DNA from: an uncultured Poribacteria bacterium
GTDB taxonomy: Bacteria; Poribacteria; WGA-4E; WGA-3G
DNA length: 64,000 nt
Assembly (NCBI GenBank): GCA_951828515.1
Contig: OX639992.1
Coordinates: 3,388,217-3,452,216, forward strand
Reading direction: 5' to 3'
Shown here in pieces: positions 15,685 to 16,563 of the stretch (position 1 is the first letter of the stretch; every line of letters begins with the position of its first letter). Below the pieces are notes generated by a model that made no database searches, was not told the origin of the DNA, and saw only the letters and a list, made by a program, of their open reading frames with translations. The position numbers and the translations under genes are program-made.

Positions 15685-15693
15685 TGCTATAAT
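15685..15693 (+). promoter_or_regulatory. Extended -10 promoter for the structured RNA
   Basis: TGCTATAAT is a perfect extended -10 (TGnTATAAT). A start near 15700 falls inside the perfect palindrome GCGAAATTTCGC (15697-15708). The -35 region is T-rich without a good match. Confidence 0.6.
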
Positions 15694-15699
15694 GAAGCG

Positions 15700-16094
15700 A
15701 AATTTCGCATGGCGAGCAATGGCACCAGTTGTGCTAATGATGTCCACCTATCACACGGCAAATGCAGGCATTTGGGGGGTTCGATTCCCCTCTGTCGTAT
15801 CCAGTAGTGTTGTGCGATAACCAAGCACACCTGACGATAACCAAGTCGGTTCTACTGAGACGGGTTCATATACGAGTGAGACGAACCCGGACACCGTAAG
15901 GACACTCGGCAGCGAAAAAGCGTTAGCATTTCGGTGCTAACTTTGAAGGTTCGTCCATGCCTCGTGTTCCTTGAGGTATGCAAGCCGCTTATATCTTCTG
16001 CGACGTGGCAGATTAAGTTGGGTGTAGGCAGGCTTAGACACCGACGGGTGTCGTAACAGGGGAGTAGGAGCCCTTTAAGAATTCTGTTGTTTTT
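15700..16094 (+). ncRNA. Unassigned structured RNA, about 395 nt
   Basis: No convincing gene lies between 15630 and 16131; instead base-pairing is dense. A tRNA T-arm-like hairpin has stem GGGG/CCCC (15776-15779, 15787-15790) and a TTCGATT loop, enclosed with a small hairpin by ACGGCA/TGTCGT (15755-15760, 15793-15798). CAGTAG/CTACTG (15802-15807, 15852-15857) encloses two hairpins with the same nine-base loop GATAACCAA. CGGGTTC/GAACCCG (15861-15867, 15883-15889) has a loop CGAGTG that pairs with CACTCG (15903-15908), an H-type pseudoknot. Further stems: 15922-15941, 15956-15980, 15982-16035 and 16037-16052. The end is AACAG...CTGTT then GTTTTT (16055-16094). It may be a free RNA or the leader of the gene at 16132. 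Not recognisable as tmRNA or RNase P RNA. Confidence 0.7.
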
Positions 16095-16131
16095 CATAGA
16101 AAAACATAGGTTTTTAAGAACAGAAAAGAGA

Positions 16132-16563
16132 ATGGCAGGAATGATTCCGACAATTAGTTCCGGGGTTGCAGGACCGCTCGGCGTGTTACACCTCCCCCGA
16201 TTCTGGTCGAAAGTGCTACTGGATTCCAAGGGGCAGTTGCATGAAGATTATCCCGCATGCGGGGCAGGCTTCGATCAGATGGTGTTAGATGGACTCGGTT
16301 TGGATAAAGATGCTACGCTGGCATATATCAGTAGCAATTCCCCGACTTACCCACAGTTTGAAGCGTGGGTTTCGGCAAACGGAAGTTTTGACCAAGCGGC
16401 AGTCAACGAACTGAACGCCGCAATTTCAGGTTATGATCACGACGACGATACCCGCGGGAGCATCCTCGGTGCAAGCGGTATCGATGATGATGGCTCCATC
16501 TTAGACGCTGTTAATCTCAACAACCTTGATGATTGGTATGAACTTCACGCCGGTTTGGGTTAG
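16132..16563 (+). CDS. DUF5069-like protein
   Basis: 143 residues, soluble, acidic. The stretch LGVLHLPRFWSKVLLDSKGQ...DYPACGAGFDQMVLDGLGLD matches the general pattern of DUF5069 proteins (hLPRhhxK...G..fD). Function unknown. ATG at 16132 has a weak GAG-type ribosome site. It lies 38 bases after the U-rich end of the structured RNA, so the RNA could be its leader. It converges with the Gfo/Idh gene at 16650. Confidence 0.7.
   Translation: MAGMIPTISSGVAGPLGVLHLPRFWSKVLLDSKGQLHEDYPACGAGFDQMVLDGLGLDKDATLAYISSNSPTYPQFEAWVSANGSFDQAAVNELNAAISGYDHDDDTRGSILGASGIDDDGSILDAVNLNNLDDWYELHAGLG

Follow-up and report, generated by a model that had tools for sequence, protein, structure and literature searches.

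The densely folded RNA between the ftsB-like and the DUF5069-like genes of this uncultured Poribacteria bacterium is one copy of a dispersed mobile element that encodes no protein. Insertion after AGGAG, common ends, a common 3' scaffold and a conserved 5' fold were observed, and it is probable that these features together describe an RNA-only, non-autonomous IS607-type element, in which a 3' TnpB guide-RNA scaffold is accompanied by a separate 5' RNA domain. The copy considered here lies in the window, i.e., the whole stretch of 64,000 nucleotides that was analysed, and positions given without a locus name refer to it.

The folded RNA and its host locus

A previous reading of this region from the sequence alone had proposed a structured RNA gene at 15685-16094, equipped with its own promoter and a terminator-like end. 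The absence of a convincing protein gene within 15685-16094 was confirmed, and so was the dense folding, given that the stretch 15756-16127 reached -137 kcal/mol compared to -108 +/- 5.5 kcal/mol in dinucleotide shuffles (z = -5.3). The boundaries had to be redrawn, since the element extends from approximately 15755 to 16123 and positions 15685-15751 correspond to the native upstream region of the host gene. This gene (16132-16563, + strand) encodes a DUF5069-like protein (Pfam PF16798, 22.4 bits, below the cut-off of 27) with orthologues that are not preceded by the element. The extended -10 box TGCTATAAT (15685-15693, + strand), previously taken as a promoter of the RNA, is also located 5' of the same gene in four element-free orthologous loci (L028, L029, L034, and L035) and therefore belongs to the host gene; a search for a full sigma-70 site at the folded-RNA locus found none. 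The supposed terminator is likewise reinterpreted, as the U-rich end ...AACAG is the right end of an IS607-type element and no terminator-like site was found there. The suggestion of a long leader of the 16132 gene was right as to position, although the sequence concerned is a transposable element, which two relatives lack at their orthologous loci.

The interpretation of the locus as a stand-alone new non-coding RNA gene, or as a divergent permuted tmRNA, is now scarcely credible. It draws on the T-arm motif GGGGTTCGATTCCCC and on the strong folding of the whole stretch, but the RNA is multicopy with known empty sites, has IS607-type ends and lacks an element-specific promoter or terminator. 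A divergent or permuted tmRNA in particular is excluded, since the genome carries an ordinary one-piece tmRNA elsewhere (G000:C1:1074894-1075247, 189 bits over the full model), and the resemblance of the folded RNA to the tmRNA model is limited to the 15-nt T-arm (9.4-10.9 bits compared to 47). No Rfam family reached its gathering score over the folded RNA; at E <= 10 the search yielded these T-arm-like 15 nt and otherwise chance matches. On the Rfam results tmRNA, in its ordinary or permuted form, RNase P, SRP, and introns of groups I and II were all rejected as candidates. A TTCRANT-loop T-arm stacked on a 6-bp closing stem is also found in mascRNA/tRNA-like elements and in the T-arm of tmRNA (RF01684 and RF00023); however, the scores are far under gathering (18.8 vs. 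42.5 and 9.4 vs. 47, respectively), a conserved CCA end and a tag are absent, and the module is embedded in a mobile element.

Autonomous relatives, the 3' half and the empty sites

Elements with the left and right ends of the RNA-only copies, here enclosing two genes, were found at loci such as L080, L087, L088, and L090. The products encoded in L087 are an IS607 TnpA (NCBIfam NF033518, 156 bits compared to a cut-off of 110) and a TnpB that scored above the cut-off of guided_TnpB (NF040570, RNA-guided TnpB) and matched the Pfam Cas12f1-like TNB entry. Two intact tnpA-tnpB copies, with both frames free of stop codons, are present in the genome of the window. Judged from the ends that the RNA-only copies have in common with these TnpA-encoding elements, the folded RNA is a non-autonomous member of the IS607 family. 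Additionally, an autonomous IS607 copy with an internal deletion was observed in L096 (1649-2143), in which a truncated tnpA is fused directly to the right end, and a deletion of this type is a possible route by which protein-less copies could arise.

The 3' half of the element (15917-16123, + strand) starts with a hairpin (15922-15928/15935-15941), finishes in ...TTTTTAAGAACAG with a right end as in the autonomous copies, and is 76-82% identical to the region after tnpB in L080, L084, and L087; in the RNA-only copy L038 the identity to tnpB-bearing elements of other genomes reaches 92% in this half. In IS607 systems, the region after tnpB is the guide-RNA scaffold and the guide of the TnpB reRNA lies just past the right end (PMC11061315). 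Because the 3' half matches this region, 15917-16123 were assigned to a putative guide-RNA scaffold, and the best reading of the 3' half is that of a TnpB guide RNA (reRNA), so that the new RNA class suggested earlier would not include it. The predicted guide would consist of host sequence, its first 20 nt (16124-16143, + strand) spanning the start codon of the DUF5069-like gene, and the empty allele of G033 (L029) has AGGAG followed by exactly these 20 nt. The likeness to IS607-family insertion sequences with TnpB and reRNA (PMC11061315) thus covers the ends, AGGAG at the left, the right-end scaffold, and the guide beyond it. The present element differs from them in that tnpA and tnpB are missing and an extra folded 5' RNA module is present, whereas the TnpB of its relatives appears to be of another clade (21.7 bits with the NCBIfam IS607_TnpB model, whose cut-off is 350) and the 3' half matched neither RAGATH-18 nor any other family in the Rfam search. 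Considering these last two differences, the scaffold, the TAM, and the guide are treated here as predicted features.

The orthologous ftsB-DUF5069 loci of G008 and G033 are without the element (empty sites L028 and L029), and together with the AGGAG flanks they indicate that the element inserts at a short G-rich target, which is not duplicated. These empty loci read ...CATAAGAAGGAG AAAA(G/A)AGAATGGCAGG; the corresponding sequence in the window is ...TTTTTAAGAACAG AAAAGAGAATGGCAGG. The window copy has neither its left end nor the flank TATTCACAACATTCATAAGAAGGAG; it therefore suffered a deletion, in which the Shine-Dalgarno (SD) sequence of the gene itself was lost. Comparison with the two empty sites and with full-length copies places the deletion junction at 15752-15754 (+ strand), where the left end of the element (approximately 60 bp) and approximately 25 bp of flank with the SD of the gene (AAGAAGGAG) are missing. 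This loss would be a later event in the history of the copy, and the whole RNA fold has been retained; copies without a left end still keep a median of 99% of the pairs.

Altogether, the ends, the target, and the empty site are directly seen, and the following steps are proposed from homology and from the published mechanism of IS607 TnpB. The TnpA serine recombinase, probably supplied in trans, would have used the element ends and inserted the element just 3' of AGGAG, and the transcript of the host gene would then read through it. TnpB, also provided in trans, would load onto the scaffold in the 3' half, take the host sequence past the right end as guide, and recognise AGGAG plus the guide sequence in an unoccupied allele, such that homing could contribute to the spread and retention of the element.

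Structure of the 5' module

In the RNA-only copies, the space of tnpA and tnpB is filled by a 5' module of approximately 160 nt (15755-15916 in the window), which would represent a separate conserved RNA domain replacing the two genes. It starts with a tRNA-elbow-like domain (15755-15798, + strand), composed of a closing stem (15755-15760/15793-15798), a D-arm-like hairpin (15761-15772), and the T-arm that matches the tmRNA model (15774-15792, loop TTCGATT). This domain is followed by a three-way junction (15802-15857, + strand) with a stem at 15802-15807/15852-15857 and two hairpins (15811-15829 and 15831-15849), both carrying the loop GATAACCAA of the shared AAAAACCA type, and by an H-type pseudoknot (15862-15908, + strand) in which 15862-15867/15883-15888 is crossed by 15873-15878/15903-15908. 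The helices of the elbow-like domain (1-3), the junction (4-6), and the pseudoknot (7-8) covary over 32 dispersed copies.

In the MAFFT alignment of these 32 copies, 94% of the cells were paired compared to 31-46% when the partners were slid by 1-3 columns, and two-sided changes were found at 32 of 51 pairs compared to 19.4 +/- 2.5 in shuffles; the structure string was taken from the window row, which favours the former figure and, to a lesser extent, the latter. Three related copies of a single genome from another genus (G066) have GGCAGA/TCTGCT as the crossing helix of the pseudoknot in place of CGAGTG/CACTCG; the rows of this genome were partly misaligned by MAFFT, and their paired fraction accordingly fell to approximately 70%. 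The minimum free energy of the 5' module folded alone was no better than that of shuffles (z = -0.05), so that its structure is argued from covariation and not from energy. Considering this strong covariation and the lack of an Rfam match, the idea of a new RNA class, untenable for the 3' half, is possible for the 5' half, and the 5' module may represent such a class.

Other folds were compared with the module by eye. A group I core (P3-P7-P8) could not be sustained, as a counterpart of P4-P6 is absent and the P7-like helix differs entirely from one genus to the other, and an HDV-like topology was also rejected. A second subtype of the module, B, was recognised in seven sequences (L036, L011, L032, L074, L075, L076, and L100), with the invariant CCCGCACC.CCCGCRACGTCGAAGCGGTATA, a different sequence but a comparable layout, covariation of its own (18 of the 50 pairs predicted), and perhaps a pseudoknot (GTCG/CGAC). 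The copy upstream of tsf (L095) has a third kind of 5' region.

Placement between the Shine-Dalgarno sequence and the start codon

The left flank was exactly AGGAG in 28 of the 37 copies with a readable left flank, a count obtained from a hand-picked copy list that excludes values from copies lacking a left end, some of which had been misplaced by the fuzzy search. AGGAG was the TAM of IS607 TnpB in 18 of the 22 strains tested (PMC11061315), and its designation as a TAM here would be by analogy, since the TnpB is of a different clade. In the present elements the AGGAG target is the SD sequence of the downstream gene, and this coincidence places the surviving copies between the SD and the start codon, close 5' of the latter in almost all cases. 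The right end lies 2-15 nt 5' of the start codon in nearly all copies. Among the 33 type A copies listed, the start codon is 2-14 nt past the right end in 29 and at 47 nt in L077, no start codon was assigned to L014 and L052, and in L018 an ATG at 8 nt is followed by a frame broken, as read by eye, by a likely selenocysteine UGA. The genes downstream of the copies, named by reading their protein sequences, include those of ribosomal proteins L21, L28, S20, S21, and L22, cytochrome oxidase III, superoxide dismutase, and acyl carrier protein. No intragenic copy was recognised among those examined, although 61 of the 82 AGGAG sites in the window fall in genes and 13 are 5' of a start codon, according to crude gene calls.

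Two further observations were made at these loci. The downstream gene in L018 (from 1891), and also in L024 and L072, appears to encode a MerP-like protein (GMTxxxC) with a TGA in frame where the first cysteine would stand, and thus a likely selenoprotein. Besides, a T-box leader (Rfam RF00230, 100.2 bits, above gathering) is located at L019:2742-3020 (+), downstream of the superoxide dismutase locus in a Poribacterium.

The right end of many copies lacks an SD. The right end ACTAACAG, devoid of an SD-like AGGA, is found in many RNA-only copies (L010, L012, L015, L025, L027, L066, L069-L071, and others) but not in any of the 17 autonomous copies that were scored, and a search with the corresponding type of 3' half found no tnpB-bearing element with that end. 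Joining the flanks of the copies restores a strong SD (type A median -8.5 kcal/mol, compared to -4.2 kcal/mol as found). Both observations would suit a 5' module acting as a ribozyme of a new class, a non-group-I analogue of IStrons whose self-splicing joins AGGAG to the start region and restores the SD, as would the layout of group B IStrons, in which a group IA2 intron at the 5' side is combined with an IS607 part at the 3' side, GG-containing targets are used, and ORF-less copies are known (PMC4227781). Group B IStrons are those of Firmicutes and Fusobacteria (PMC4227781), and the present elements are poribacterial. However, we regard self-splicing as improbable. No group I core was found here and Rfam gave no group I/II match, with Intron_gpI unmatched at E <= 10 in the window and at E <= 2 in nine loci. 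IStrons are intragenic in 58% of the cases, in contrast to the present copies, none of which was recognised inside a gene. Moreover, the distribution is the same for tnpB-bearing copies that have no module as for the RNA-only copies, and copies that lost the 5' junction, that of the window included, retain the module.

Assistance to the translation of the host gene, either by recruitment of the ribosome or by a folding that brings the upstream SD near the start codon, appears very doubtful as the role of the RNA. The position of the copies between SD and start codon, the SD-less right ends 5' of genes expected to require good translation, and the fold retained in copies without a left end all agree with such a role. 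Nevertheless, autonomous copies without the module are found at comparable sites, the window copy has lost its upstream SD, and the right end, being U-rich and unstructured, could alone permit SD-independent initiation. In more general terms, the 5' module could be a new functional RNA class, either ribozyme or ribosome-recruiting, that keeps the host mRNA working after landing between SD and start codon, a counterpart of the IStron intron outside group I that was captured independently by IS607/TnpB elements, and this proposal is considered unlikely.

The role that seems most likely for the 5' module, and is favoured here, is in the maturation of the guide RNA or in its stability and protection, as the module takes the place of the tnpB message upstream of the guide RNA and opens with a tRNA-like domain. 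In the absence of an upstream tnpB message, it might mature or stabilise the guide RNA, for instance as a tRNA-elbow processing or protection domain.

With regard to distribution, a search with 501 bp of DNA gave matches in 27 of 60 relatives, which all belong to a single genus, and in some of them only the element-free host locus was matched. The module pattern, run against 84,980 species genomes, was restricted to Poribacteria (17 stretches), and in the IMG/VR viral contigs it had no match, leaving a phage origin unsupported. Within Poribacteria, the module is limited to two genera of one family, close relatives of the TnpB extend to further genera of that family, and seven genomes have type A copies without a close TnpB, a point against the explanation proposed here. 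The occurrence in such genomes and the fold kept in copies without a left end are compatible with a use beyond transposition, which they do not prove.

The open-access literature searched contained no account of such elements in Poribacteria or of TnpB elements at SD sites. The kind of element, IS607/TnpB type, is known, and the RNA of the 5' module is possibly new. Taken together, these results describe protein-less elements in which a TnpB-type guide RNA is apparently combined with a covarying RNA domain that is undescribed and lies outside the IStron lineage. They also indicate that a TAM-like AGGAG target can double as a Shine-Dalgarno sequence, so that elements pile up between the SD and the start codon, including those of ribosomal protein genes, and the translation of SD-less host genes and the function of the 5' domain are now directly testable.
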